From Flavobacterium ammoniigenes (GTDB taxonomy: Bacteria; Bacteroidota; Bacteroidia; Flavobacteriales; Flavobacteriaceae), in contig NZ_AP025184.1 in assembly GCF_020886055.1 (NCBI RefSeq), positions 1,736,001 through 1,800,000 of the forward strand: a stretch of DNA of 64,000 bases. The letters run 5' to 3'. The position numbers were made by a program, and so were the translations under genes. Position 1 is the stretch's first letter. Each line of letters starts with the position of its first letter. A model generated the notes under the pieces. That model was not told where the DNA came from. It searched no databases and saw only the letters and a list, made by a program, of their open reading frames with translations. Of this stretch, positions 47,896 through 62,575 are shown in pieces.

Positions 47896-48387
47896 TCACT
47901 TTTCTTCGTGATCGCTAGTTTCTTTTTCGATGGTTGTATTACTGAAATCTTTTCTAATTTCAGTATGGCGAATTTCCCCTCCTGAAGTACCTACTTTTTG
48001 AATAACAAAAAGACTTGCAATTCCAATTAGTAAAATTATATAAGATACTAACTTCTCTTTAGCATTTTTCTTGTATTGAAGATAAAAACCTACCAGTGAT
48101 AAAACACCAAGAATATCTAATAACAATGCCATTTTTTCAGCCAATTCTTCATGTTCATGAATTATTTTCCAACCAATTCCTGGCATGTCTTCTACCAATT
48201 CCTCGGCTCCTTCTCCGGTATTCATACTTAAAATTCCAAAAATAGCTCCAATCACAAACAAAACATAGGAAGTGTTAATGATGGATCTGTTTTTACTTAA
48301 TAATCCAGCAATTAAAATCCCGATTGCTAAAATGGTTCCAATAATTGGAAAGTGGTTGACCACCATGTGTAAATGTGCTTCGTTCAT
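47896..48387 (-). CDS. Small membrane protein, DUF2231-like
   Basis: 163 residues with four hydrophobic segments (about 12-30, 36-55, 85-103, 112-130). The N-terminus has MNEAHLHMVVNHFPIIG, a His-rich pattern similar to DUF2231 membrane proteins. The C-terminal tail is charged and His/Glu-rich (HTEIRKDF, DHEEK). Last gene of the efflux operon, 23 nt after the ferritin-VIT1 gene. A metal or haem role is suggested by context only. Confidence 0.75.
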   Translation of the reverse strand: MNEAHLHMVVNHFPIIGTILAIGILIAGLLSKNRSIINTSYVLFVIGAIFGILSMNTGEGAEELVEDMPGIGWKIIHEHEELAEKMALLLDILGVLSLVGFYLQYKKNAKEKLVSYIILLIGIASLFVIQKVGTSGGEIRHTEIRKDFSNTTIEKETSDHEEK

Positions 48388-48410: not shown

Positions 48411-49529
48411 TTATCCTGCTAATGAAACTCCAATCAATGAGCCTATTCCATACGTTACTGCCGCGGCTGCTAGACCAAAAGCGACTTGTCTAAAACCAGA
48501 AAATAAAACACTTTTGCCTGTCAATAAAGTAATTGCAGCTCCAATTCCAAAAAGGCCAATTACACTACTTCCAATACTTAATAAAATGGCATTGTTTCCA
48601 TCTAGAAAGATAAAAGGATATAATGGAATGATTGCCCCAATAGAAAATAAAATAAATGAAGCGATTGCTGCTTCCCATGCCGAACCACCTAATTCTTCTT
48701 TATCGATTCCTAATTCTTCTGTTATAATTGCATCAATTGCAGTTTCTGGACTTTCAAAAGCTTTGTCTGCTAATTTTTGTGCATCCGCAGCACTCATTCC
48801 TTTGGCTTGGTACAATAAAACCAATTCTTTTTTCTCTTCCTCAGGTGAGGCCTCTAATTCTTCGGTTTCTAATTCAATTTGGCGTTGGTTCAATTCTCTC
48901 GAACTTTGTACCGAAAGCCATTCGCCCAGCGCCATCGAAATGGCACCCGCTAATAATCCTGCAGTACCAGTCAATAAAATGGTATCGTTGGAAACTGCTG
49001 CTCCAGCCACACCCATCACCAAACTCATGTTGGATACCAAACCATCATTGGAACCCAATACAGCAGCACGCAAAGCATTTCCACCTACAGATTTATGTCG
49101 GCTTTCAAATTTGGACAATAATCCCCCAGAAACATTTAAGGCTTCATTATTATTAACGGCTTCAATAATATTCAAATGATTGTGCTCAAAACCTGTTAAC
49201 TTTTCGCCCAACTCAATTTTATTCTTAATAGTGTTGACTGCAAATTGTTTTTCTATACTTGCCAAACTACTTATAATAGCACTATACCCAAACAATTTTC
49301 CTACTTTCAATTGGAATTTGGCTTTGGAAGAAGCTACTGGCATTTGATAATTAGACTCCAAAGTCATTACTTTTTCTAGCATATGCTTAGCGTGACCTTT
49401 TTCAATATCCGCTAAACTTTGCAAAACACGTTTCAAACTATCATCAGTTTGAATTGAAGCAATACTCTCATATAAAAATGCAGTATCTACTTCAACTTGT
49501 AATTGTTTTTTTAATTTATTGAGATCCAT
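48411..49529 (-). CDS. Ferritin-like domain fused to VIT1/CCC1 iron/manganese transporter
   Basis: 372 residues. An N-terminal ferritin/rubrerythrin-like helical domain (1-150; Glu21, Glu43 and His46 of E-x-x-H as likely metal ligands) is joined to a VIT1/CCC1 membrane domain (about 160-372; VLGSNDGLVSNMSLVMGVAGAA, GEWLSVQSSRELNQRQIELETEELEASPEEEKKEL). This plan matches the MbfA-type iron exporters. It lies in the RND efflux operon, so the operon may handle iron or manganese as well as other metals. 6 nt after the adaptor gene. Confidence 0.9.
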   Translation of the reverse strand: MDLNKLKKQLQVEVDTAFLYESIASIQTDDSLKRVLQSLADIEKGHAKHMLEKVMTLESNYQMPVASSKAKFQLKVGKLFGYSAIISSLASIEKQFAVNTIKNKIELGEKLTGFEHNHLNIIEAVNNNEALNVSGGLLSKFESRHKSVGGNALRAAVLGSNDGLVSNMSLVMGVAGAAVSNDTILLTGTAGLLAGAISMALGEWLSVQSSRELNQRQIELETEELEASPEEEKKELVLLYQAKGMSAADAQKLADKAFESPETAIDAIITEELGIDKEELGGSAWEAAIASFILFSIGAIIPLYPFIFLDGNNAILLSIGSSVIGLFGIGAAITLLTGKSVLFSGFRQVAFGLAAAAVTYGIGSLIGVSLAG

Positions 49530-49535
49530 ATTTTT

Positions 49536-50654
49536 CTAATTTGCAATGTCAAATGCGCCTTTCACCAAGATTTTAGAAGAAGCATTAATTGTATTATTTG
49601 AAAGTAATGCTACAAACGAACTATTTCTATCTCCGATGGAAACGGCTACTTTTTTAAAACTGTACTGATTCTTTTTATTACTTACTTCTAAAAGTACATA
49701 ATTTTTATTGTTTTCACTAATTAAAGCGTAAACTGGAACTGCTAATGCGTTTTTTGAACCCGTTACAATACTAGCTTCTACAAACATTCCTGTCAGTAAT
49801 TTTTGCTTAATAGTCTCCTCTAAATGTCCGTGAACATTAATTGTTCTATCATTTCCCTCAATAGATTTTCCAACCAAATGTACTTCCGCTGGAAAAACAG
49901 TCTTTGAAGCTTCCGGAACTGTGAAATGTATTTTTTGTCCTATTTGTACGTTCAAAATATCTTTTTCAAAAACTGCCAATTCCAAATGTAAATGTTGTGT
50001 ATCTACAATTTCTAAAATCACATCTGAAGGCGCAATATACATTCCAACATTCGCATTCATAATAACAATATCACCAGAAATTGGTGATGAAATAGTAACT
50101 GTAGAAGTCAATTTACCTTTCTCAACATTAGCGGGATTAATTTTTAATAGCAACAGTTTTTCTCTCAAACTTTGATACATTCCTTTGGTTTTACGGTACT
50201 CACTTTCAGCCTTTAAGTAGTTTTTTTGCGAACTTATTTTTTCGTCAAATAAAGTTTTTTGGCGTTCGTATTCTGATTTCAAATATTGAATTTGTTCAGC
50301 CACTTCTAAATATTCCTTTTGGATATCTAAATACTCTGCACTTTCCAATGTCACTAGAGCCTGACCTTTACGAACCTTATCACCCACTAATAGTTGGGTT
50401 GACTTAACATAACCCCCAATAAAAGTAGTTACTTGTGCTCGGTTTTGTGGCGGTACATCAATTTTACCCGATGCTTTGACATTGACTTCAAACTCTTGAT
50501 TTGTTGGATTTTCTACTAGCATTCCGCTTGATTTAAATTGAGCTTCGGTCACATGAATTAATCCGTCTTCTTGAACTTGTGATTCTTCAATTTTAGTTTC
50601 TTTACAACCAATCAAAACAGTTGATAATACAAGGGTGTATAGTATTTTTTTCAT
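49536..50654 (-). CDS. RND efflux periplasmic adaptor (CusB/CzcB type) lipoprotein
   Basis: 372 residues. Lipoprotein signal with lipobox Cys17 (LIGC). Adaptor plan: beta-barrel and lipoyl halves (AQVTTFIGGYVKSTQLLVGDKVRKGQALVTLES) flanking a coiled-coil hairpin (about 105-160), then the membrane-proximal part. It bridges the inner-membrane pump and the outer-membrane channel; here the TolC part is fused to the pump. 10 nt after the pump gene. Substrate metal not fixed. Confidence 0.92.
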   Translation of the reverse strand: MKKILYTLVLSTVLIGCKETKIEESQVQEDGLIHVTEAQFKSSGMLVENPTNQEFEVNVKASGKIDVPPQNRAQVTTFIGGYVKSTQLLVGDKVRKGQALVTLESAEYLDIQKEYLEVAEQIQYLKSEYERQKTLFDEKISSQKNYLKAESEYRKTKGMYQSLREKLLLLKINPANVEKGKLTSTVTISSPISGDIVIMNANVGMYIAPSDVILEIVDTQHLHLELAVFEKDILNVQIGQKIHFTVPEASKTVFPAEVHLVGKSIEGNDRTINVHGHLEETIKQKLLTGMFVEASIVTGSKNALAVPVYALISENNKNYVLLEVSNKKNQYSFKKVAVSIGDRNSSFVALLSNNTINASSKILVKGAFDIAN

Positions 50655-50664
50655 TATAAACAGA

Positions 50665-53600
50665 TTAATAGTTAGGGTAATTTAATTCCAATTGAATGGT
50701 GTTGAATTGTAACAAAGTGTCTAAATGATCCACTTGAATTGTGGTAGCATTTTCTAAACTTTGAATGTATTGAAAGAAATCAATCTCTCCATTTTTATAA
50801 CTCAAATTAGCAACTTTGATAATTTCATCAGACAATTTCTTTCCAAATTGATTGTAATAGTTAATTGCCTCTTGGTATTTGGCTAACTCACTTTGCTTTT
50901 GATTCAAGTATTGCAACAACTTTTGTTCTTCGTTTTGTTTTTGTTGTTCCCAACTTTTTAGTTCAATTTGGGCTGCTTTAATCTTAGTTGTTGTTCCAGA
51001 GAATAAAAGTGGAACAGCGATGCCAACTTGAAAACCATACAAAGATTGAGATAAACCATTGTTTCTGCCATTAAAATAGTCTAGATTGATATCCGGTAAC
51101 CAATGTTGTTTTTGTAGTTCTAATTGTTTTTTATAAGTTTCTGTAACTTTCTCTAAATAAAAGGAATGAATATCTTTTCCTAAACTATCGAATGAAATAG
51201 TTATAGGACTTAATTGAGTAGTTGTTATTATAATTTCATCCTCTGATTGTACAAGAGAATTCAATACTTCGTATTGCGCTTGTTTATCTTTTTCGATCTG
51301 AAATTTCTTAGTTTGAATTTGACCTGATTTGGCTTGAGCCGTAATTTTTTCTAAATAATTTGTTTCTCCTAATTCAAAACGTCTATTGCTTGCTTTAGAA
51401 AAATTCTGATACAAACTATCCAAATACGTATATTGTTTTGCTTGATTTTGCAAATAAACTATGTGCTCATACACCTTAGAAACCATCAAAGTGAGCTTAC
51501 GCTTTTTTATTTCCAAACCTACTCTTTCTTTTTCATTCTCTGAAACAAGCACGCTTTTCTTAGCACCATAAACTGTAGGGAATTCCAATTTTTGTTGGAT
51601 TCCAAATACACGTAAAGGCTCGTTATTTAAAGCTAAATTATTTTGATCATAACTATAATACAAATTGGTTTTGTCAAAAGAATAAGCCGATTGAATGGCT
51701 GCATTCGATTTATCTAATTGCAATTGTGCTGCTTTAATTTCTTTATTATTTTGTAGGGCTAAATAGATTATTCGTTCTCTTTCAGATTTATCATTTTGAG
51801 CACTAAGTGCTGAACAACTCAACAAAAAGAAAAGCAGGTAAATCGATTTATTATGCATTTTAAAATGGGGTTTTTTTAATTCCTTTTTATCCAAAACTTT
51901 GAATAAAATTGGTAATACTATCATGGTTAGCACGGTCGCTGTAAACAACCCCCCAATAACTACCGTGGCTAAAGGACGTTGTACTTCGGCTCCAGCAGAA
52001 GAAGAAATAGCCATGGGTAAAAATCCTAGAGCTGCAGCGGCAGCAGTTAATAAAACCGGTCGCAAACGATCCGTGGTACCTTTTAGAATTAATTCATCGA
52101 TGCTTTTTATGCCACTATGTTTGAGTTCTTTAAAATGTTCAATTAATACAATGCCGTTTAAAACAGCAATGCCAAAAAGTGCAATAAACCCAACTCCTGC
52201 CGAAATACTAAATGGCAATCCTCGCATCCATAAAAATAAGATTCCTCCAACTGCTGAAAGAGGTATCGCTGAATACACCATCAAAGCCTCTTTAACTGAT
52301 CCGAAAGCAAAATACAATAAAATAAAGATTAAAAATAAGGCAATTGGTACTGCAATTAACAATCGGGCTTTGGCTGATTGTAAGTTTTCAAACTGACCTC
52401 CATATTTCACATAATAACCTGCTGGCAATTTAATTTTAGTAGCGACTATCTTCTGAATATCAGTTACAACACTTTGTAAATCTCGATTTCTTACATTTAT
52501 ACCAACAACAATTCTTCGATTCGTATTGTCTCTTGAAATTTTTGCAGGCCCTTGGGTGTAATCGATCGATGCTAATTCACTTAATGGGATTTGTTGCCCA
52601 TTAGGTGTTGAAACGTACAGATTTTTCAGGTCATCAATATCTTTACGATTCATTTTATCCAAACGCACTACCATATCAAAACGTTTCTCACCTTCAAATA
52701 CATTTCCTACCGTTTTACCGGCAAAACTCAAGGCAATCATATCGTTTAAGTCGGCAATATTTAATCCGTAGCGAGCAATTTTGGAACGATCATATTGTAC
52801 AAACATCTGAGGCAAACCCTCGGTTTTTTCAATAATTATATCCGATGCACCAGCTACATTTTTAATTGCATTTTCAATTTCGTGAGCTTTTTGTGCCAAA
52901 ATATTTAAGTCTTCACCAAATAACTTAATTGCCACATCCGAACGTGTTCCTGAAATTAATTCATTAAAACGCATTTCGATAGGTTGTGTAAATTCAATTT
53001 CCATATTAGGAATTTGCATTTCTATGGCTGATTTAATTTTATCGGCTAATTCATCTTTAGATTCGGCTGAAACCCAATCTGACTTTGGTTTGAGTTTAAC
53101 AATAATATCGCTTTCCTCCATAGACATAGGATCGGTTGGTACCTCTGCGGCACCTATCCTACTCACTACTTGTGTAACTTCCGGAAAATTCTTCAAGATT
53201 ATTTTTTCAATCTTGGTGGTGGTGGTAATTGTTTTTGTTAATGATGTTCCCGTTTTAAGTACAGGTTGAATTACAAAATCACCTTCATCTAAAGTAGGAA
53301 TAAACTCGCCACCCATAGTAGTAAACAATACGATGGCAAAAACCAAAAGTCCAAAAGCACCATAAAATACTTTTTTGGTGTTAGCTAAAGACCAAGTAAT
53401 TATAGGCAAATAAACCGAATTTAATTTTTGAATTAGTTTATGCGAAAAAGAATCCGAATTGTCTGCAGTGGGTTTTAAAAATAATGAAGACACCACGGGC
53501 ACATAAGTAAAACAAAATAACATCGCGCCAAGCAAAGCAAAGCTAAAAGTCATTGCCATGGGTTTGAACATTTTTCCTTCTATGCCAGATAAAGACAATA

Positions 53601-54999
53601 TTGGGATAAAAACGATCAATATAATCAATTGGCCAAAAACAGCCGAATTCATCATTTTAGAAGCACTTTTAAAAGTGATTTGGTCAATTTCTAGTTGTTG
53701 GTCCTCTTTGGGAAGTAAAGCTAAATGTGCCGATTTATGCGCAATTTGAAAGGCAATAAACTCAACTATAATTACGGCTCCGTCAATAATAATCCCAAAA
53801 TCAATTGCACCTAAACTCATTAAATTGGCATCGATTCCAAAAATATTCATAAATGAAATCGCAAATAACAAACAAAGTGGGATAACTGAGGCTACTACTA
53901 GACCTGAACGCCAATTTCCTAATAATAATACCACTACAAAAATTACAATTAAACAACCAAGAATTAAGTTCTCTGCTACTGTAAATGTGGTTTTACCCAC
54001 TAATTCACTTCGTTCTAGAAATCCATTAATATAGACTCCTTCAGGTAAGGTTTTTTGAATTTCGGCTACACGGTTTTTAACATCTGTAATCACTTGTTTT
54101 GAATTCCCTCCTTTAAGCATCATGACTTGTCCCAACACTTTCTCGCCTTCACCATTTCCTGTGATTGCTCCAAAACGGTTCGCATGTCCGAAACTAACTT
54201 GAGCAATATTTTTAATGTAAACGGGCATACCGTTGGTATTCTTTACAACAATATTTTCAATGTCTTCCAAGGACTTCACTTTTCCTTCGCCACGAATAAA
54301 ATAACTTTGATTTACTTTTTCAATATAAGCGCCTCCAGCAATACTATTGTTTTTTTCTAAAGCCGTAAAAACATCCGTCATGCTGATATTAATCGCTTTT
54401 AAACTTGCTGGACTTATTGCAATTTCATATTGCTTCAAAAAGCCTCCCCAAGTATTGATTTCAACAACACCTTTGATTCCTGACAATTGACGTTTTACAA
54501 CCCAATCTTGAATCGTTCGTAAATCGGTAACAGAATAATTGTTTTTGAATTCGGGTTGTACCTCTAAAGTATATTGATAAATTTCGCCTAAACCTGTAGT
54601 TATTGGTCCCATTTCTGGAGTGCCAAAACCTGCAGGAATTTTTTCAGAAGCTGATTTAATTTTTTCGGCTATTAATTGTCTTGGCAAATAGGTTCCTAAA
54701 TCATCTTCAAATACAATAGTAACTACAGATAATCCAAATTTAGAAATCGAACGAATCTCTTTTACACTTGGCAAATTGGCCATTTCAATTTCTACAGGAT
54801 AGGTAATAAATTGTTCAATATCCTGAGTAGAAAGATTTCGCGAGGTAGTAATGACTTGGACTTGATTGTTGGTAACATCAGGAACTGCTCCAATTGAAAT
54901 TTGAAAAAGGGAATAGATGCCAAAACTAAATATACCTAGTGTTAACAGTATAATAATTAGTTTATTTTTTAAACTAAAAGCTATAATTTTTTCAAGCAT
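50665..54999 (-). CDS. CusA/CzcA-type heavy-metal RND pump fused to a TolC-like outer-membrane factor
   Basis: 1444 residues. Residues 1 to about 1040 are a complete HME-RND pump with 12 membrane segments and the intramembrane Asp motif LGAIDFGIIIDGAVIIVE. From about 1048 a second unit begins, MHNKSIYLLFFLLSCSALSAQND, which looks like a signal peptide, followed by TolC-type helices to the end (397 residues). So the inner-membrane pump and outer-membrane factor lie in one chain, or are cleaved at the internal signal. Cation (Cu, Zn, Co or Cd) export is likely; the ion cannot be read. Its promoter and operator are at 55023-55090. Confidence 0.92.
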   Translation of the reverse strand: MLEKIIAFSLKNKLIIILLTLGIFSFGIYSLFQISIGAVPDVTNNQVQVITTSRNLSTQDIEQFITYPVEIEMANLPSVKEIRSISKFGLSVVTIVFEDDLGTYLPRQLIAEKIKSASEKIPAGFGTPEMGPITTGLGEIYQYTLEVQPEFKNNYSVTDLRTIQDWVVKRQLSGIKGVVEINTWGGFLKQYEIAISPASLKAINISMTDVFTALEKNNSIAGGAYIEKVNQSYFIRGEGKVKSLEDIENIVVKNTNGMPVYIKNIAQVSFGHANRFGAITGNGEGEKVLGQVMMLKGGNSKQVITDVKNRVAEIQKTLPEGVYINGFLERSELVGKTTFTVAENLILGCLIVIFVVVLLLGNWRSGLVVASVIPLCLLFAISFMNIFGIDANLMSLGAIDFGIIIDGAVIIVEFIAFQIAHKSAHLALLPKEDQQLEIDQITFKSASKMMNSAVFGQLIILIVFIPILSLSGIEGKMFKPMAMTFSFALLGAMLFCFTYVPVVSSLFLKPTADNSDSFSHKLIQKLNSVYLPIITWSLANTKKVFYGAFGLLVFAIVLFTTMGGEFIPTLDEGDFVIQPVLKTGTSLTKTITTTTKIEKIILKNFPEVTQVVSRIGAAEVPTDPMSMEESDIIVKLKPKSDWVSAESKDELADKIKSAIEMQIPNMEIEFTQPIEMRFNELISGTRSDVAIKLFGEDLNILAQKAHEIENAIKNVAGASDIIIEKTEGLPQMFVQYDRSKIARYGLNIADLNDMIALSFAGKTVGNVFEGEKRFDMVVRLDKMNRKDIDDLKNLYVSTPNGQQIPLSELASIDYTQGPAKISRDNTNRRIVVGINVRNRDLQSVVTDIQKIVATKIKLPAGYYVKYGGQFENLQSAKARLLIAVPIALFLIFILLYFAFGSVKEALMVYSAIPLSAVGGILFLWMRGLPFSISAGVGFIALFGIAVLNGIVLIEHFKELKHSGIKSIDELILKGTTDRLRPVLLTAAAAALGFLPMAISSSAGAEVQRPLATVVIGGLFTATVLTMIVLPILFKVLDKKELKKPHFKMHNKSIYLLFFLLSCSALSAQNDKSERERIIYLALQNNKEIKAAQLQLDKSNAAIQSAYSFDKTNLYYSYDQNNLALNNEPLRVFGIQQKLEFPTVYGAKKSVLVSENEKERVGLEIKKRKLTLMVSKVYEHIVYLQNQAKQYTYLDSLYQNFSKASNRRFELGETNYLEKITAQAKSGQIQTKKFQIEKDKQAQYEVLNSLVQSEDEIIITTTQLSPITISFDSLGKDIHSFYLEKVTETYKKQLELQKQHWLPDINLDYFNGRNNGLSQSLYGFQVGIAVPLLFSGTTTKIKAAQIELKSWEQQKQNEEQKLLQYLNQKQSELAKYQEAINYYNQFGKKLSDEIIKVANLSYKNGEIDFFQYIQSLENATTIQVDHLDTLLQFNTIQLELNYPNY

Positions 55000-55022
55000 A
55001 ATCGACTTATATTGATAGAATT

Positions 55023-55050
55023 CAAAAGTAAGTTATAAATATAAGTCAAA
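55023..55050 (-). promoter_or_regulatory. Promoter of the efflux operon (-7 TACTTTTG, -33 TTTG)
   Basis: On the minus strand, TTTG at 55047-55050 is separated by 16 nt from TACTTTTG at 55023-55030; the ATG follows 23 nt later. It gives the efflux operon a start separate from the histidine kinase gene just upstream. Confidence 0.6.
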
Positions 55051-55051
55051 T

Positions 55052-55090
55052 CTTAAGAATTACTTAAGGCTTTATTAAGTATTACTTAGG
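55052..55090. promoter_or_regulatory. Four tandem CTTAAG-like hexamers, 11-bp spacing (candidate response-regulator operator)
   Basis: Hexamers CTTAAG (55052-55057), CTTAAG (55063-55068), ATTAAG (55074-55079) and CTTAGG (55085-55090), each separated by exactly 5 nt. The 11-bp period places all on one face of the helix, just upstream of the -33 box. OmpR-family regulators such as PmrA bind tandem TTAA-core hexamers with N5 spacing. The last copies extend into the end of the histidine kinase gene. Likely bound by the regulator at 56474. Confidence 0.75.
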
Positions 55091-56470
55091 TGACTGGGGG
55101 AAAAATAATTCAACTTTGGTACCTAATTGCTCAGAACTAGAGATATTGATACCAATATTCAGCAGTAAACAAAGACGTTGAACAATGGACAAGCCAACAC
55201 CTATTCCTTTAATATCAGGGTGATTTAAAGCTTTAGAACGAAAAAAGGGTTGGAACACTTTTTCTAAATCTACTTTAGAAATACCAATTCCATTATCAAC
55301 AATGGAACATATGATTTGTTGTTCTTTACTATACAAATGAACATTTATGGTACCGTTTGAATTAGAATACTTTAACGCATTTGAAATTAAATTGGTGAGA
55401 ATTATTGACACAAAATGATGATCTGAAATACAATAAAATTCATCTTCAAATTCAGTCGAAATTATAATACCATTGGCTTCTATAAAAGTGGATTGTCTAG
55501 CTAAAGTGTCGAGAATTAGACCATTTAAGAAAACGGATTCTTTTTTTATAGTTTGCTTCTCATTCTCATATCTTGCCAATAATAATAATTGATCCACTAA
55601 ATGATTCAACCGATCGACTTCTGACACACAAAAATTGATTTTATCTTCATATTCTTGGGTTCCCCTTGGTTTTCTAATTAATACTTCTAAAGTGCCTTTA
55701 ATTACTGTTAGTGGAGTACGTAGTTCATGAGAAGCATCCGAAGTAAATTGTTTTTCGCGCTCAATAGCAGTCTCTAATCGATCTAATAAATTATTAATAG
55801 TTTTGGACAAAACATACAATTCATCTTTCGTTTTAGGTAACGGAATTCGGGACTTCAAATTGTCTTTAGTGATTATATTTGAAGTAGTAATTATCTCACT
55901 GATAGGTTGAATGCTACGACCGGTAATGAGTCGTGCGATCCCAAACAAAATAAGCAAAATTGTAGGATAAGCAATTAATAAAACCTCTAATAAGTCATTC
56001 AAAACCATAAAAGAATTTTCTAATGACATCGCAACCATAAGGTAACCAACAATTGTTTTATCTTGATATATTGGCAGCTGAATTTGACGCAAAGATTTTC
56101 CTTCTAATTGGTAATCAAACAAATGGCCGGAAGGAATTTTGGATTGAAATTGCAGATTCATTTTAAGATTAGGTGATTTTTCAACAACTCGTTTATTTTC
56201 GTCAACAAACTGAACAAAAACTGGATTTACATCAACCGTATTATGTTCTCTTTCCATCCATTCTTCTGCGTGAATAAGACGAAAATTATAATTACTTATA
56301 GAAATTTCAGTTAAGTGCTTCTGAGATTCTGATATAATATCATCATTAATATGGCTGTAAACATTATAACTTACACTGAAATAGATAACACAAAATACCA
56401 CTGAAATTAATAAAGCAGTGGTAAATATGTACAATGAAGCTATTCTATTTTTAAATGAAAGTTGTTGCAT
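55082..56470 (-). CDS. Sensor histidine kinase of the metal-type two-component system
   Basis: 462 residues. Two membrane helices (about 12-33 and 158-180) enclose a periplasmic sensor domain of about 125 residues; HAMP-like linker about 182-235; HisKA with phospho-acceptor His248 (DASHELRTPLT); HATPase with NLISNALKY, DNGIGIS and GIGVGLSIV. The architecture matches CusS/CzcS-type kinases. The sensor has several His (about 67, 76, 116) that could bind a metal. 3 nt after the response regulator gene. Confidence 0.92.
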   Translation of the reverse strand: MQQLSFKNRIASLYIFTTALLISVVFCVIYFSVSYNVYSHINDDIISESQKHLTEISISNYNFRLIHAEEWMEREHNTVDVNPVFVQFVDENKRVVEKSPNLKMNLQFQSKIPSGHLFDYQLEGKSLRQIQLPIYQDKTIVGYLMVAMSLENSFMVLNDLLEVLLIAYPTILLILFGIARLITGRSIQPISEIITTSNIITKDNLKSRIPLPKTKDELYVLSKTINNLLDRLETAIEREKQFTSDASHELRTPLTVIKGTLEVLIRKPRGTQEYEDKINFCVSEVDRLNHLVDQLLLLARYENEKQTIKKESVFLNGLILDTLARQSTFIEANGIIISTEFEDEFYCISDHHFVSIILTNLISNALKYSNSNGTINVHLYSKEQQIICSIVDNGIGISKVDLEKVFQPFFRSKALNHPDIKGIGVGLSIVQRLCLLLNIGINISSSEQLGTKVELFFPQSPK

Positions 56471-56473
56471 ACA

Positions 56474-57136
56474 TTAATCATTTGCGATATAGCCCACACC
56501 TCGAATTGTTTTAATGTAGTCTTCTTCTTTTTTAAAATTTAATTTTTTTCGAATAGCATTCATAAATACATCAATAACTCCAGTATCATAATCAAAATGA
56601 ATATCCCATACCTCTTCAATGATTTGTGATCGTGTACACACTTTGCCTTTATTTTTTATCAAATAGCGCAACAACTCAAATTCGCGATGCGTTAAAGTAA
56701 CTGCCTCATGATTAATAGTAACTTGATGTTTAGATACATCCATTACTATTGGTCCTAAAGTTAACAGCTGTGCTTCTTGACTATTTCGAAAATGTATTTT
56801 GATGCGTTCTAATAATTCATCAAAGCTAAATGGTTTTTTGATATAATCATTTGCGCCTGCTCTCAATCCTTCAATAGTCTCAGTAACGGTATCTTTGGCA
56901 GTTAAAAAGAGTATTGGACAAGTTGTATTGTATAATCGGAAGGATTTACAAACTTCTAAACCAGTCAGTTTAGGTAACATCCAATCAAGCAAAATTAAGT
57001 CGAAACTTTCTTTTGAAAGTAATTGAATTGCTTGTTCGCCATCTGTTGCTGTTAGGATATCATATCCTTCTTCTTCTAATCCTTGTTGTAAGAATTGAAG
57101 TATCCCAGCTTCGTCTTCTACTATTAATATGCGCAT
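56474..57136 (-). CDS. OmpR-family response regulator
   Basis: 220 residues. Receiver domain (1-118) with Glu7/Asp8 acidic residues, phospho-acceptor Asp51 (LILLDWMLP), Thr and Lys in FLTAKD and YIKKPF. Winged-helix output domain (about 125-220) with LTHREFELLRYLIKNKGKVCTRSQIIEEVWDIHFDYDTGVIDVFMNAIRKKL. It resembles CusR/CzcR-type regulators. Probable targets are the hexamer arrays at 55052-55090 and 60358-60374, i.e. the efflux operon and its own operon. Confidence 0.93.
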   Translation of the reverse strand: MRILIVEDEAGILQFLQQGLEEEGYDILTATDGEQAIQLLSKESFDLILLDWMLPKLTGLEVCKSFRLYNTTCPILFLTAKDTVTETIEGLRAGANDYIKKPFSFDELLERIKIHFRNSQEAQLLTLGPIVMDVSKHQVTINHEAVTLTHREFELLRYLIKNKGKVCTRSQIIEEVWDIHFDYDTGVIDVFMNAIRKKLNFKKEEDYIKTIRGVGYIAND

Positions 57137-57156: not shown

Positions 57157-58632
57157 TTATTGCATGATAAATTTGAAGGCTACTGTGGCAATACTGGCTT
57201 TAAGTCGGTCAGTACGATCGTATTGATGGAATCTAAAATCAATGTTTTTTAGCCCAAATTGCCATATTTTGGCTGATGCAAAAATATCAGTGTAATTGAC
57301 TCCAAAACCTATTTGTTTGGTTTCAAAGGTAGCTAAATCTGGATCAGAAGTATAAAATTGTTCCGTTGAAAGATGCTTTTCGTAAGGAGCGTAATATTGA
57401 GACGCATTTTGGGTATAATACCTAAAGCTTGGGAATACTGTAAATTTATCTGAAAGCTTTACTGGTAATTCTATACTTGCAGTTTGTGCTCGAATATTCC
57501 AATCATCTGAATAATACCTGTAATACGTTCGTAAAACAAATCGTTCGTTGATATAATAATTCAATCGAACCCCAATTGGCAATTTAAATCGAGTATCAGG
57601 CAAACGCTCTATATCATCGGCTAATTTAAAAACACCGGTATTAGTGCTACTTTCATAATTGGCAATATATTGAGATTGGCCAATAAAAAAATTGGTTTTA
57701 TCGGCAAAATAAATTCGGTGATAGGGTGTTGATAATAAACCTTGTTGTTGTAATACATCAAAGAAAACTGAAAGTTGAAGTCGTTGGGATAGAATTTGTG
57801 AAAACCCAAAAGAAGCCGAATACGAATTTCTGTTGGTCAAGCTTAAATCTGTGAATTTAGTTGGTAAATACTTTTCAGTTGCCATAATCCCATTTTCATT
57901 ATAAACCGTAACTCCACTAAAATAACCTTGATTTAATAAATTAGTACCATATTTGGAATATTCATGGAGTTCCGTTGGATAAATCGGGCGCCATTGGTCT
58001 AAGTAGACATTAGCTTTTAGGTTGATTTCGGTATTTTTTTCATTGAATAAAGCAGCAATTCCTCCTCCAAAACCAAAAGAGGTATAATCGTACTCGTTTG
58101 AAAAAGAGACATCGGAATTCCATATAAAATTTCTAGAATCACTACTGTGACTATAATTAGCCATAACCGAAACCAATTGATCACTTTTAGAAGCGCCTGA
58201 TGAAGCTTGCCATGGCGAACCGTAAGGTCCTGTTCCTGTTGATGATGAAGCTGCTTTTGTATTTACTCTTTTGTCATCATCTCCTCCTGAGGCACCAGAA
58301 TAATTTGTGGTTCCTGAAGCACCAGACGAATTAAAAGGGTTTATATTACTAGAAGATGCTGATGAATAGGCTGATATACCAATATCTACGGTTAAAACAT
58401 CGTCATCGTTCAACGGCATAGCTACAGTTATATTCGAAGCGGCGTCTACGAGTTTTTCAGATCCAATTCCACCAGAAACAGATGATTTTGAACCGTCTTG
58501 AACATAATAACTAGCTAAAAAATCTACTTCAGCACTCTCTAATACCCTCTTTTTGAAGGTAGGTTGTTTTGTACCTTGTGAATAAACACAAGATAAAAGA
58601 AACAAAAATAGAATGGTATTGTATTTTTTCAT
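57157..58632 (-). CDS. DUF3570 outer-membrane beta-barrel protein with SGAS repeats
   Basis: 491 residues from ATG at 58632 (MKKYNTILFLFLLSC). Signal peptide (about 1-18), then an even pattern of amphipathic strands ending in aromatic residues, ending TVAFKFIMQ, typical of an outer-membrane barrel. A Ser/Gly-rich loop (about 90-150) carries SGAS three times, at 103-106, 112-115 and 145-148. SGA(S/T) is the core of the site that ApbE flavinylates, and apbE is two genes upstream. The family's function is not known. The frame can be extended to 58656, but that overlaps DUF4266. Confidence 0.88.
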   Translation of the reverse strand: MKKYNTILFLFLLSCVYSQGTKQPTFKKRVLESAEVDFLASYYVQDGSKSSVSGGIGSEKLVDAASNITVAMPLNDDDVLTVDIGISAYSSASSSNINPFNSSGASGTTNYSGASGGDDDKRVNTKAASSSTGTGPYGSPWQASSGASKSDQLVSVMANYSHSSDSRNFIWNSDVSFSNEYDYTSFGFGGGIAALFNEKNTEINLKANVYLDQWRPIYPTELHEYSKYGTNLLNQGYFSGVTVYNENGIMATEKYLPTKFTDLSLTNRNSYSASFGFSQILSQRLQLSVFFDVLQQQGLLSTPYHRIYFADKTNFFIGQSQYIANYESSTNTGVFKLADDIERLPDTRFKLPIGVRLNYYINERFVLRTYYRYYSDDWNIRAQTASIELPVKLSDKFTVFPSFRYYTQNASQYYAPYEKHLSTEQFYTSDPDLATFETKQIGFGVNYTDIFASAKIWQFGLKNIDFRFHQYDRTDRLKASIATVAFKFIMQ

Positions 58633-58646
58633 TGATAAAGTAATCA

Positions 58647-58859
58647 TTAATTGCATCCACAGCCTCCACCCGACTTTCCTCCATTGGCACCAGCCGCGGC
58701 TTCTCTATACACTTGAAAAGTTGTTTCATATTTTTCAGCCGTTCGGGCAGCCAATTTCATATCAATATCATTGATTTTTTCTTTTTCATACTCTTTAACA
58801 ACCGTACATGATTGAAATACAAACAAAATAAACAGAGACAAACAAGATTTCTTAATCAT
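58647..58859 (-). CDS. DUF4266 small lipoprotein with C-terminal Cys-x-Cys
   Basis: 70 residues. Lipobox Cys18 (VFQSC), a charged helical middle part and a Gly-rich tail ending GGGCGCN. The tail's C-x-C could bind a metal or form a disulfide with the thioredoxin-like protein of the operon. DUF4266 genes tend to sit beside DUF3570 genes (family knowledge), so the two may form one outer-membrane complex. 5 nt after apbE, 14 nt before the DUF3570 start. Confidence 0.85.
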   Translation of the reverse strand: MIKKSCLSLFILFVFQSCTVVKEYEKEKINDIDMKLAARTAEKYETTFQVYREAAAGANGGKSGGGCGCN

Positions 58860-58864
58860 AATTT

Positions 58865-59848
58865 TTAGTTGTATTTTTTAACATCTATTCCTTTTGAAGA
58901 ATGAATTTTTCCTTTATCATCAACAATGATACATTCAATTCCTTTTAATTGGTTTACTAAATCCAATCCTACTTCGACACCTAAAACAAAAATTCCAGTA
59001 GCCAAAGCATCCGCAATTTCAGTTTGCTTAGCAAATACCGAAACACTAACGACTCCTTGAGCTGGATAACCCGTTCTTGGATCAATAATATGTGAATACC
59101 GGATACCATTAAAGATAACGTATTTTTCGTAGCTACCTGAAGTTTCTACTGAACTATTTTCTAATGGAAACGTTGCAAATACTTTGTTTTTATTCATTGG
59201 ATTTACAATACCAACCGTCCATGGTTTTTGATTGTTTTGTTTACCCCAAGCATTAATATCTCCAGATACATTTACAATTCCGGATACACAACCATTAGCA
59301 ACTAATTTGTCTTTTACTTTGTCAGCAATATAGCCTTGTCCAATACCGCCAAGACCTAATTTCATTCCTTCTAGTTTTAAAAAAATAGATTGGTCTTTGG
59401 GGTTTAAAATGATATTTTTATACCCAATTTTAGCTACCGATTTTTTGATCGCTTCTTCGGTTGGCATCGTTTTCATACTCCCATCAAATTTCCAAATCTT
59501 ATCCATAGAGGCATATGAAATATCAAAAGCACCTTCCGTAATTTCTGAAATCTTAATTGCTCGCGCTACCAATTCATATACTTCTGAATCTACTTTTACA
59601 GCTTGTATTCCGGCATTTTTATTTACCATTGAAATTGGGGTGGTTGGAATCCAATCCGAAATTTGATTTTCAATACGTTTGACTTCTGCTATTGCTAAAT
59701 CAATAAAGAAATTGCCTTGGATAGAATCCTTAGCAACAACCGTAATTTCAAATGGACTGCCCAATAGGGAAACTTTCTTCTTGTATTCTGCTTGTGCGAA
59801 AGAAGAAAAGCTAACTACAATAAATATAAAGGATAGAAAATTTTTCAT
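58865..59848 (-). CDS. apbE: FAD:protein FMN transferase
   Basis: 327 residues with a signal peptide (about 1-20). ApbE transfers FMN from FAD to Ser/Thr of periplasmic proteins. Motifs: GLGGIGQGYIADKV, SGDINAWGKQ, ETSGSYEKYV, and SHIIDPRTGYPAQGV with the Mg-binding region, and a final metal Asp in IADALATGIFVLG. In this operon the DUF3570 protein, with SGAS motifs, is the obvious substrate. The start overlaps the thioredoxin-like gene stop by 1 nt (TAATG). Confidence 0.95.
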   Translation of the reverse strand: MKNFLSFIFIVVSFSSFAQAEYKKKVSLLGSPFEITVVAKDSIQGNFFIDLAIAEVKRIENQISDWIPTTPISMVNKNAGIQAVKVDSEVYELVARAIKISEITEGAFDISYASMDKIWKFDGSMKTMPTEEAIKKSVAKIGYKNIILNPKDQSIFLKLEGMKLGLGGIGQGYIADKVKDKLVANGCVSGIVNVSGDINAWGKQNNQKPWTVGIVNPMNKNKVFATFPLENSSVETSGSYEKYVIFNGIRYSHIIDPRTGYPAQGVVSVSVFAKQTEIADALATGIFVLGVEVGLDLVNQLKGIECIIVDDKGKIHSSKGIDVKKYN

Positions 59849-60282
59849 TATTTTTCGAATGAATGTATCAATTGAATGTATGCTGCTGCTGAAATATTTT
59901 TATAACCATCAACACCTAAAACAGTTCCTGTTTTATCTAATAAAAGCACTAATGGAAAATAACCTTCAGCATTGTATTGCGCCGCTAATTTTTTATTACT
60001 TTCAGTCAGAGCTGAATCCAATTGATTGACTTTCTTCTTTGGAAAGTCGGCTCTATAAATGACCCATTTGCTTTCAGATTCTTTTTTGAACTCTTCAGAT
60101 TGCCAAACAGTTTTATCTAGTTTTATACAAGGTGCACACCAATCTGATCCTGAAAAAACCAATAGTATATTTTTATTTTCATTCATTGCTTGTGTTTTAG
60201 CTTCTTCAAAATTAGTTTTCCAATTTTGAGAATAACCCAAAAAGCTTGTAAATACCATTAAAAATGCTACTATATTTTTCAT
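59848..60282 (-). CDS. Secreted thioredoxin-like protein
   Basis: 144 residues from ATG at 60282 (MKNIVAFLMVFTSFLGYSQ). Signal peptide, then a thioredoxin fold with FSGSDWCAPCIKLD (active-site CAPC, about 44-47) and the cis-Pro in FPLVLLLD. A frame to 60315 lacks the promoter distance and has a poorer signal, so the 60282 start is preferred. First gene of the operon; it may keep periplasmic Cys (such as the CGC tail of DUF4266) reduced. Overlaps apbE by 1 nt. Confidence 0.9.
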   Translation of the reverse strand: MKNIVAFLMVFTSFLGYSQNWKTNFEEAKTQAMNENKNILLVFSGSDWCAPCIKLDKTVWQSEEFKKESESKWVIYRADFPKKKVNQLDSALTESNKKLAAQYNAEGYFPLVLLLDKTGTVLGVDGYKNISAAAYIQLIHSFEK

Positions 60283-60312
60283 ATTGAATGAGTTTCTATG
60301 TTTAAACTTATA

Positions 60313-60346
60313 CAAAAATAACTGAAAATCAATCGTTTTATTTCAA
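60313..60346 (-). promoter_or_regulatory. Promoter of the thioredoxin-apbE-DUF3570-two-component operon
   Basis: On the minus strand TTG at 60344-60346 is separated by 23 nt from TATTTTTG at 60313-60320; the ATG at 60282 follows 30 nt later. It fits the Bacteroidetes consensus. Confidence 0.55.
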
Positions 60347-60357
60347 TTGAAATTGAT

Positions 60358-60374
60358 TTTAAGGGAACCTTAAG
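60358..60374. promoter_or_regulatory. Pair of CTTAAG-like hexamers, 11-bp spacing, upstream of the thioredoxin operon
   Basis: TTTAAG (60358-60363), 5 nt, CTTAAG (60369-60374): the same hexamer and N5 spacing as the array at 55052-55090. It begins 11 nt upstream of the -33 box of the operon that encodes the response regulator itself. Suggests autoregulation. Confidence 0.65.
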
Positions 60375-60453
60375 ATTAAATTTATTAAATATCATTTTTG
60401 AATATAGAATGTGTGATAGTTTTTATAGCAGTTCGTATTACTTTCAAATTGTT

Positions 60454-60461
60454 TATTTTTG
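60454..60461 (+). promoter_or_regulatory. -7 element TATTTTTG for the LTA-synthase-like gene
   Basis: An exact TAnnTTTG match 17 nt upstream of the ATG at 60479. It fixes the start, because the alternative start at 60398 would include the promoter in the coding region. Confidence 0.55.
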
Positions 60462-60478
60462 CAAAAAATAAATTCAAA

Positions 60479-62575
60479 ATGTCTTTACTAAAAAAACTAT
60501 CTCCTTTCTATACACTTACTTTATTTTATTTAATTGTAAGCTTTTTTTTAAGAACCATATTATTATTTCATCCCATTACACAAGCGAGTTTTTCAGGGCT
60601 TGATCTATTCAAAATAGTTGTTTTTGGAGTCGTATCTGATAGTTTGGTATTTATCGTATTGAGTAGTTTTTTGTGGTTGTACTTAGTATTTATTTCCAAT
60701 TCAAAATACCTACAACCAACGGGATATTTACTGTTTGGAACATTGGTAAGTTTGTTTTTGTATGTGGCATTTGGGAATACAATTTTAAATGAATATGGAG
60801 GCGCTTTACCTGAAATAGGAATGGCATTCATTGGATTAAAAACACTACTATTTGGTTTATTATTATTTCTTCCAAAATACCGTCAAACTATTCGTTTTTG
60901 GTTATTTTCATTTGTGATTTTTCTATACGTAACTTTAATACTTCAAAATGCAATTAGTGAATTTTTCTTTTGGAATGAATTTGGTGTAAAATACAATTTT
61001 ATCGCTGTGAACTATTTGGTGTATACCAATGAAGTAATTGGTAATATAATGCAGTCCTATCCTGTAATACCCATTTTCACTGCCCTTTTTATTTTATCAG
61101 GCACTATTACCTATTTCATTGTAAAACACTCTAAAAATTACTTAGAATCGATCCCAACTTTTGTAGAAAAAATTAAAATTTCAGGATTGTATTTAGTTCT
61201 TTTAGGCTTTTCATTAGTGACCGTTCCATTTTTAGCTGCCAAAGAAAATTCTCAAAACATCTTTACTAATGAATTGCAATCCAATGGAATTTATAAATTC
61301 TATTTGGCTTTCATACATAGTGAATTGGATTACTTTAAATTTTACAAAACGATTCCAAGTAATGAAGCCTATGCTATTTTGAAAGAGCAAATACCAGGTA
61401 TATCAAGTGAATCAACTTCGCGATTTATTAATGGAAAAGGACAAGAAACTCATAAAAATGTTGTACTGATTACAATTGAAAGCTACAGCGCTGATTTTAT
61501 GAAAGCCTATGGTAACGAAAACAATATTACCCCGTTTTTGGATGAATTGGCCACCCAAAGTTTACAATTCACCAATTTGTACGCCGTGGGCAATCGAACC
61601 GTTCGTGGTCTCGAAGCTGTAACGCTTTGCTTTCCTCCAACAGCCGGAGAAAGTGTCGTAAAACGAAAAGACAATAAAAACAAATTTTCTACTGGAAATG
61701 TTTTCAAACAAAAAGGATATAATGTAAACTACTTGTATGGTGGTGATGCCTTTTTTGATAATATGGAAGATTTTTTCTCTGGAAATGGTTATGGTATAAT
61801 TGATAAGAAATCATTGAATCCGAGTGAAATTACTTTTTCCAATGTTTGGGGGGTATGTGATGAAGATATGGCAAATAAAGCAATCCAAGTTATGAATGCC
61901 GAAGCAAAAACAGGAAAGCCATTCTTTAATCATTGGATGACTGTAAGTAACCATCGACCATTTACGTATCCGAACAATAAAATTGACATTCCGGGTGATG
62001 CGAAATCAAGAGATGGCGGAGTAAAATATACCGACTATGCATTGAAGCAATTCTTTGATATGGCAAAAAAACAAGCTTGGTTCAACAACACTGTTTTTGT
62101 GATTATTGCGGATCATTGTGCTTCTAGTGCAGGTAAAACAGAATTACCTTTGGACAAATATAGAATTCCGGCTATGGTATATAGTCCAGGATTTATTGCA
62201 CCTCAAAAGTACAACCAATTAATGTCCCAAATTGATGTAATGCCCACACTAATGGGCTTATTGAATTTTAGCTATGAAAGTAAGTTTTACGGACAAGATG
62301 TATTGGAATCTGATTACAAGCCAAGAGCATTGATTGCTACCTATCAGGATTTAGGTTTGATAAAAGACAATGTTTTGACGATTATATCGCCAAAACAACA
62401 GGTCAAACAATTCCAATTGAGCTTGAAACCAAACCAAAAAATGGCTCCTGAATTTCAACTTTATTATGACCAGGTATTATTGAAAAAAGAAAGAACCGAC
62501 TTAGTCAATGAAACAGTTTCGTATTATCAAACGGCCTCCGACTTATTGAAGAAAAAGAAGTACCAAAACAAATAA
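60479..62575 (+). CDS. LTA synthase-family membrane sulfatase-fold protein
   Basis: 698 residues from ATG at 60479 (MSLLKKLSPFY). About five membrane helices (to about residue 240) are followed by an alkaline-phosphatase/sulfatase-superfamily periplasmic domain (about 300-640): VVLITIESYSADFM for the first metal, VGNRTVRGLEA with the probable catalytic Thr, FVIIADHCASS for the second metal. In Gram-negatives such proteins act as phosphoglycerol or phosphoethanolamine transferases on membrane glycans or lipids. Monocistronic, terminator at 62577. Confidence 0.9.
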   Translation: MSLLKKLSPFYTLTLFYLIVSFFLRTILLFHPITQASFSGLDLFKIVVFGVVSDSLVFIVLSSFLWLYLVFISNSKYLQPTGYLLFGTLVSLFLYVAFGNTILNEYGGALPEIGMAFIGLKTLLFGLLLFLPKYRQTIRFWLFSFVIFLYVTLILQNAISEFFFWNEFGVKYNFIAVNYLVYTNEVIGNIMQSYPVIPIFTALFILSGTITYFIVKHSKNYLESIPTFVEKIKISGLYLVLLGFSLVTVPFLAAKENSQNIFTNELQSNGIYKFYLAFIHSELDYFKFYKTIPSNEAYAILKEQIPGISSESTSRFINGKGQETHKNVVLITIESYSADFMKAYGNENNITPFLDELATQSLQFTNLYAVGNRTVRGLEAVTLCFPPTAGESVVKRKDNKNKFSTGNVFKQKGYNVNYLYGGDAFFDNMEDFFSGNGYGIIDKKSLNPSEITFSNVWGVCDEDMANKAIQVMNAEAKTGKPFFNHWMTVSNHRPFTYPNNKIDIPGDAKSRDGGVKYTDYALKQFFDMAKKQAWFNNTVFVIIADHCASSAGKTELPLDKYRIPAMVYSPGFIAPQKYNQLMSQIDVMPTLMGLLNFSYESKFYGQDVLESDYKPRALIATYQDLGLIKDNVLTIISPKQQVKQFQLSLKPNQKMAPEFQLYYDQVLLKKERTDLVNETVSYYQTASDLLKKKKYQNK

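Follow-up and report, generated by a model that had tools for sequence, protein, structure and literature searches.

A Phased TTAAG Direct-Repeat Array Ahead of a Heavy-Metal RND Pump Gene in Flavobacterium ammoniigenes: a Candidate BqsR-Like Operator

In the window, that is, the whole 64,000-nt stretch of the Flavobacterium ammoniigenes genome analysed here, four phased direct repeats stand between the gene of a sensor kinase and that of a heavy-metal RND pump. Judged by its sequence, this array is a tandem operator of the OmpR/PhoB type, and it very probably belongs to the response regulator whose gene lies at 56474–57136, as a BqsR-like site through which the phosphorylated regulator, bound as one dimer or two, would activate the pump under metal stress. 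The array is conserved ahead of the pump genes of related bacteria, keeps a constant phase to the -7 box of the promoter, is confined in its strict form to this one locus and occurs together with the kinase–regulator pair.

The Four-Unit Array

The hexamers CTTAAG, CTTAAG, ATTAAG and CTTAGG start at positions 55052, 55063, 55074 and 55085 and are separated by spacers of 5 nt; the starts, the spacers and the 11-bp period noticed in the initial annotation all hold. Read on the minus strand towards the pump, the array is CCTAAG-TAATA-CTTAAT-AAAGC-CTTAAG-TAATT-CTTAAG, with one unit per helical turn, and it is followed by 21 bp, the -7 box TACTTTTG, a further 23 bp and the start codon of the pump gene. 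Direct repeats 10–11 bp (about one helical turn) apart, as found here, are the mark of operators of the OmpR/PhoB family. When four phased YTTAAK units were scored on both strands, the array reached 23 out of 24, the maximum of the window; this score was unmatched in 300 dinucleotide-preserving shuffles of the window, three of which reached 22. The exact pair CTTAAG-N5-CTTAAG occurs a single time in the window and a single time in the 2.26-Mb genome; allowing ATTAAG in the pair as well brings one exact match in the rest of the genome, at 54109.

Genes of the Locus

On the minus strand the genes are arranged in the order thioredoxin-like, ApbE, DUF4266, DUF3570, regulator and kinase, then the array, and behind it RND pump, adaptor, VIT1-family and DUF2231. 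The response regulator (56474–57136, minus strand), the presumed binder of this array and of a second one described below, consists of a receiver domain (Response_reg) and a Trans_reg_C domain and belongs to the OmpR/PhoB family, so that a regulator of the appropriate kind is linked to the operator. The sensor histidine kinase (55082–56470, minus strand) carries the periplasmic motif EWxExEH, whose fixed residues are conserved in 87–92% of 79 aligned kinases; each glutamate of its E70-x-x-E73 is kept in 87% of them, and the periplasmic ExxE known from BqsS is thus present.

The first gene behind the array (50665–54999, minus strand) encodes a CusA/CzcA-family heavy-metal RND pump, which scores 1176 bits against TIGR00914, the model of these pumps, well above its cut-off of 701.45. 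Its residues Q, E and E are aligned with positions 573, 623 and 672 of E. coli CusA, which we take to be methionines, and the closest solved pump is ZneA; on both grounds a copper/silver pump is unlikely. The pump is a single protein of 1444 aa with an outer-membrane-factor (OEP) domain fused at the C-terminus. Next come the genes of a CusB-like RND periplasmic adaptor (49536–50654), a VIT1-family transporter (48411–49529) and a DUF2231 membrane protein (47896–48387), all on the minus strand; the extra N-terminal part of the VIT1-family protein comprises about 150 residues that match encapsulated-ferritin profiles weakly.

Ahead of the regulator gene, and likewise on the minus strand, lie the genes of a DUF3570 protein (57157–58656), a small DUF4266 protein with a C-terminal CGCN (58647–58859), an ApbE flavin transferase (58865–59848) and a thioredoxin-like protein (59848–60315). 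Three SGAS motifs are found in the DUF3570 protein; [S/T]GA[S/T] is described as a flavinylation motif (PMC8238504), and by this token the protein is a probable flavinylation substrate. The listed start of the thioredoxin-like gene, a TTG, falls inside a -7 box, and the true start is therefore probably the ATG near 60282. In the opposite direction, on the plus strand, runs a gene (60398–62575) for a membrane protein of the sulfatase superfamily resembling LTA synthase and phosphoglycerol transferases.

The Pump Promoter

The -7 box of the pump promoter, TACTTTTG (55023–55030, minus strand), is located 21 bp from the array and matches the Flavobacterium consensus TAHHTTTG, which spans -12 to -5 (PMC6847099); transcription of the pump gene is predicted to start near 55018. 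Since the box spans these positions and is 21 bp away, the last array unit ends at about -34, and the proximal pair, numbered by the same scheme (PMC6847099), is predicted to occupy about -50 to -34. A proximal unit at the -35/-33 region, here 21 bp before TAnnTTTG, is also a trait of BqsR operators.

In 34 of 40 pump promoters an exact TAnnTTTG was found no farther than 75 nt from the best pair, six being without it, and in all 34 the distance from pair to box was 21, 22, 32, 33 or 43 bp. In an alignment of 28 non-identical orthologous promoters, which was selected for -7 boxes at distance 21, so that the preceding figures are the unselected ones, the promoter-proximal pair CTTAAG-TAATT-CTTAAG (55052–55068, minus strand) and the -7 box are near-invariant, while the promoter-distal pair CCTAAG-TAATA-CTTAAT (55074–55090, minus strand) keeps its phase with a less conserved sequence. 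The four copies are in phase, as had been proposed, but they are unequal, and the notion of four equal units was rejected because the distal pair is weaker.

The array had also been described as lying immediately upstream of a -33 box. This is true of the window, where a TTTG (55047–55050, minus strand) is found 1 nt past the last array unit and 16 nt ahead of TACTTTTG, but relatives do not keep the element there: TTG at the -33 place of the window is absent from the other 27 of the 28 aligned promoters. A TTTG closer to the -7 box than that of the window is present in L109 and L120, and a closer TTG in L111. With no conserved -33 box, the pump promoter seems to depend on an activator. Alternatively, the regulator could bind here as a repressor: with the last unit adjoining the -33 region, it could, for instance, keep RNA polymerase out at -34. 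Such a role is very unlikely, for a promoter without a conserved -33 box (27 of 28) would gain little from a repressor, and BqsR, dissected with its last pentamer on the -35, is an activator (PMC4682146). Activation by the regulator at 56474–57136, already suggested in the initial annotation, is supported by these features and is the most likely reading of the sequence.

Conservation among Relatives

All conservation counts run over related genomes. Kinase matches were obtained in 10 of 149 genomes of a family sample; contigs of named genomes gave 213 relatives of the kinase, from which 80 loci were kept and L017–L034 analysed, L035–L096, with an identity of 34% or less, being left out; and in the genus sample, where the kinase is present in 197 of 299 genomes, loci were taken for the best 30. 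With the window included, the set comprises 57 loci.

A TTAAG-N6-TTAAG pair with at most one mismatch precedes the pump gene in 40 of the 44 regions examined (shuffled-region mean 2.07), and an exact pair does so in 35 of them (shuffled-region mean 0.02). In the four remaining loci the pair stands directly behind the kinase gene, before another open frame, so that the array does accompany the orthologous pumps, a point on which the initial annotation had let its reading depend. The pumps of two of these four loci, L102 and L107, are 50–52% identical to that of the window, and their genes may be paralogues. Exact TTAAG pairs are spaced by 11 bp in 35 of the 44 pump regions, by 22 bp in 24 and by 33 bp in 22; spacings of 10 and 12 bp are missing from the list for these regions.

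Beyond the genus, the kinase was found at E 1e-70 or better in 88 of 296 genomes of a phylum sample. Of 25 further loci, 21 contain the exact pair, including 11 of the 13 that come from other genera, and each of 41 aligned relatives has the recognition-helix core [TS][GS]VIDV. In three far genomes (L254–L256) the gene order is DUF2231-like, regulator, kinase, array and rubrerythrin-like, with an additional array ahead of DUF2231 in two of them; in L256 Pfam confirmed both rubrerythrin and DUF2231, and in L254 rubrerythrin, the other assignments being made by likeness. Four-unit arrays whose first unit is CCTAAG, as in the window, precede the pump in L259 and L260.

Two further observations concern the neighbourhood of the pair. 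In the far genomes L257 and L258 an exact pair is located before the gene of a small membrane protein, identified by Pfam as DUF4405 in L257, which in turn precedes regulator and kinase. In eight loci (L022, L023, L024, L025, L027, L028, L032 and L033) a short open frame, MISIQLHHHHFHYCSQAMC, is found just behind the kinase gene; it resembles a histidine-operon leader peptide.

Overlap with the Kinase Gene

Part of the array had been placed within the end of the kinase gene, and in the window this is the case: 55090–55085 are the final two kinase codons (CCT AAG), and the TAA stop comes next, after the first array unit. Most close loci have the kinase stop 3 to 32 bp ahead of the pair end, at offsets of 3, 10, 14, 19, 21, 25, 28, 31 and 32 bp, taken from the best-scoring pair, which in L010–L013, L017, L018 and L122 is not the promoter-nearest one. 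The stop is farther off in L009, L015, L016 and L031, and in L020, L097, L112 and L114 its TAA coincides with the core of the last TTAAG unit. Relative to the -7 box the stop is found in all three frames; the phase of the array to the box is constant. On this comparison of loci the overlap is a lineage detail, and elsewhere the array lies beyond the gene altogether or contributes the stop codon through its last unit.

These data also bear on the possibility that the repeats are a by-product of an A+T-rich gene end, with no regulatory role, for which it speaks that the array is partly coding in this genome. A coding artefact was rejected on the drift of the stop in position and frame while the array and its spacing to the -7 box persist; moreover, relatives carry arrays in non-coding sequence, arrays are also found in loci of 42–45% G+C and in rearranged gene order (L031, L213 and L214 are the loci cited for them), and they vanish on shuffling. 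By these results the by-product reading is effectively refuted.

The Second Array and Other Promoters of the System

A second array, TTTAAG-GGAAC-CTTAAG in plus-strand letters (60358–60374), is found in the intergenic region shared by the thioredoxin-like gene and the divergent LTA-synthase-like gene; it may have a third, weak unit on either side. The -7 box of the thioredoxin-like operon, TATTTTTG (60313–60320, minus strand), is 37 bp away from it. All eight regions ahead of a thioredoxin-like gene contain a pair with at most one mismatch. Such a pair also precedes the regulator gene in 26 of the 30 loci that show no recognised operon mate ahead of it (at 12 of these 30 no known gene is seen upstream), and in none of 25 loci where it is operon-internal, with a DUF3570, ApbE or thioredoxin-like gene ahead. 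The four operon-first loci without a pair within 300 nt are L104, L114, L120 and L125, L114 having an exact pair at 317 nt.

Among 23 divergent intergenic regions, 19 have a TAnnTTTG 10–60 bp beyond the pair towards the LTA-synthase-like gene, in 16 of them at 21+11n bp within 1 bp, nine of the 16 coming from one close group; the window has no TAnnTTTG at 10–60 bp from the pair on this side. Towards the thioredoxin-like gene or the regulator, the distance is 37 or 38 bp in 10 regions and 55–57 bp in nine, which form the same close group, and there is no box in four. The pair is forward in 10, reverse in one and symmetric in five cases on the LTA-synthase-like side, and reverse in eight, forward in one and symmetric in five on the other, the offsets for this count having been chosen after the distances were known. 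This suggests, as a lead and not as proof, that a single divergent array serves two promoters in two geometries, and the LTA-synthase-like gene is a possible member of the regulon in relatives.

Restriction to the Locus and a Look-Alike Site

The strict pattern CTTAAG-N5-CTTAAG-N20-22-TAnnTTTG, which demands both hexamers exact and so misses many sites of the looser pair, was found 52 times in 50 of the 299 genus genomes, the reversed-pattern control giving one site. All 52 sites belong to the locus of the kinase–regulator system. Locus comparison placed 30 of them: 26 between kinase and pump (five with the array about 0.5 kb from the pump), one between kinase and VIT1, and three upstream of the LTA-synthase-like gene. 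Five were placed from separately fetched loci and 17 by the coordinates of the kinase match, 16 of these beside the kinase gene and one, in G320, 1.6 kb upstream of it. Forty-nine of the 50 genomes are in the list of kinase-positive ones (197 of 299), and the fiftieth (L194) has a kinase fragment beside the site. In the own genome of the array a loose pattern (TTAA-N7-TTAA plus a -7 box) gave 27 sites against 26 in the control and is therefore without power; a general regulon there was rejected, the loose pattern being no commoner than the control.

One hit of the loose pattern, far from the pump locus, is a TTAAG-N6-TTAAG pair located 21 bp before TAGATTTG, upstream of a DUF1573-like gene adjoining a mutS-like gene (G000:C1:231746-231790, L173; DUF1573 is a name given from sequence alone). 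This pair, with at most one mismatch, the same spacing and a -7 box 21 or 32 bp away, recurs in 21 of 30 genus loci, including three of six genomes listed as kinase-negative. Probably it is read by another OmpR-family regulator, and because it occurs in kinase-negative genomes too, the operator code is probably not private to the neighbouring regulator. It could be argued from this site, and from the two further full-length OmpR-family regulators encoded in the own genome, that the main reader of the pump array itself is another regulator of the family, for example an RprY- or PhoB-like one. This is unlikely, as the strict form is confined to the present locus in 299 genomes, the pair tracks the regulator's own promoter (26 of 30 versus 0 of 25) and the recognition helices of the two further regulators differ.

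Proposed Mode of Action and Significance

With the neighbouring regulator as the preferred reader, an extracytoplasmic metal signal would cause the kinase (55082–56470) to phosphorylate the regulator (56474–57136), a dimer of which would dock on CTTAAG-N5-CTTAAG at about -50 to -34 and recruit RNA polymerase to a pump promoter that offers a good TAnnTTTG -7 box and no conserved -33 box; the weaker upstream pair could take a second dimer and give extra output. Through the second array (60358–60374) the operon of thioredoxin, ApbE, DUF4266, DUF3570, regulator and kinase would come under the same control, which would amount to autoregulation, and in relatives this array probably controls the divergent LTA-synthase-like gene as well. 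Iron or another divalent metal is our best guess at the signal, the likeliest one by analogy because VIT1, rubrerythrin and a CusA/CzcA-type pump are the neighbours.

A wider reading, which is put forward tentatively and which we are inclined to doubt, would make the BqsR-type code the constant hallmark of a metal-sensing two-component system found throughout the phylum Bacteroidota, with one regulon, a dual-geometry array and an operator-shaped C-terminus of the kinase. If true, the regulon would comprise the RND pump, the VIT1/rubrerythrin iron proteins, the flavinylated DUF3570/thioredoxin set and the LTA-synthase-like enzyme; its array would act at 21+11n bp forward, on the LTA-synthase-like side, and at 37 bp backward, on the thioredoxin/regulator side; and its operator would have moulded the C-terminus of its own sensor kinase. 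To our knowledge, few response regulators of Bacteroidota have a defined DNA target. The array provides a candidate operator, a target list and a guess at the signal for a system whose kinase is present in 197 of 299 sampled genomes of the genus, and it would connect the ApbE/DUF3570/thioredoxin sets, of uncertain function according to PMC8238504, to metal stress.

Comparison with Known Systems

Among known operators the array most resembles, in sequence, the BqsR box TTAAG-N6-TTAAG, and the window contains an exact pair of this form. The likeness is one of operators, the kinship of the regulators being a separate matter: the DNA-binding domain of the regulator gives a weak match (E 5e-10) to the solved CarR chain 9yfa, which presumably is P. 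aeruginosa BqsR. The BqsR cluster of P. aeruginosa is described as a set of four TTAAG pentamers separated by 6 bp, in which the two proximal pentamers are critical, the two distal ones act additively and the last overlaps the -35; spacer length is essential, C is favoured at spacer position 11, and BqsR acts as an activator, with hundreds of potential sites counted in the genome (PMC4682146). The half-site, the 6-bp pentamer spacer (5 bp between hexamers), the C favoured before the second TTAAG, the phased clusters of four and the last unit at the -35/-33 region are common to BqsR (CarR) and the present array. For BqsR the key role of the proximal two units and activation come from dissection, whereas here the proximal pair is near-invariant and activation is what we infer. 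BqsS binds Fe(II) and has a periplasmic ExxE of which only the second Glu was found to be essential for binding (PMC12666569), and ColS, an ExxE kinase too, is able to sense zinc and ferric iron (PMC4074579); the kinase of the window has the same periplasmic ExxE and may by analogy bind a metal. The systems differ in that Pseudomonas belongs to another phylum with another sigma factor, the promoter here being of the TAnnTTTG kind, in their target genes, and in that the strict site is found at a single locus in Flavobacterium as opposed to the hundreds of potential sites reported for P. aeruginosa.

The arrangement had first been likened to PmrA (BasR) boxes. These have CTTAAG/XTTAAT or CTTAAT/CCTAAG half-sites with 5 bp between them, in head-to-tail direct repeat, and are served by an iron-sensing ExxE kinase family (PMC3973317, PMC4660055); the YTTAA-type half-sites and N5 spacer of the array fit the definition of PMC3973317. 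The likeness ends there, a PmrA box having two units against four here, and the regulator itself is not PmrA: it shares 25% identity with E. coli BasR in the DNA-binding domain, the base-contact residues N188, N196 and R210 of PmrA (PMC4660055) correspond to G, A and R, and it scores 149.7 bits against the NCBIfam PmrA model, whose cut-off is 330. With two of three contacts different and a score below the cut-off, membership was rejected, and the BqsR box is the closer parallel.

The arrangement of regulator, kinase and CusA/CzcA pump is that of CusR/CzcR systems, and CusR is the closest of four E. coli regulators compared (38% identity overall, 35% in the DNA-binding domain). The best NCBIfam models for regulator and kinase are heavy-metal subfamilies, both scoring below cut-off: 206.2 bits against 279.2 for the regulator (TIGR01387, CusR/CzcR heavy-metal regulator) and 181.3 against 292.55 for the kinase. 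The CusR box is palindromic, in contrast to the direct-repeat operator described here. In the literature, a search judged partly by title found no Flavobacterium operator of the TTAAG-pair kind, and one for PmrA-box TTAA direct repeats found no paper.

Finally, the ApbE, DUF3570, thioredoxin-like and DUF4266 families, which here stand ahead of the regulator gene, are those of the flavinylation clusters of PMC8238504, where 25 such clusters with a VIT1 gene are reported. The passages of PMC8238504 on these clusters give neither a regulator nor an operator for them; unlike the clusters described there, the present set is linked with the genes of an RND pump and of a two-component system.
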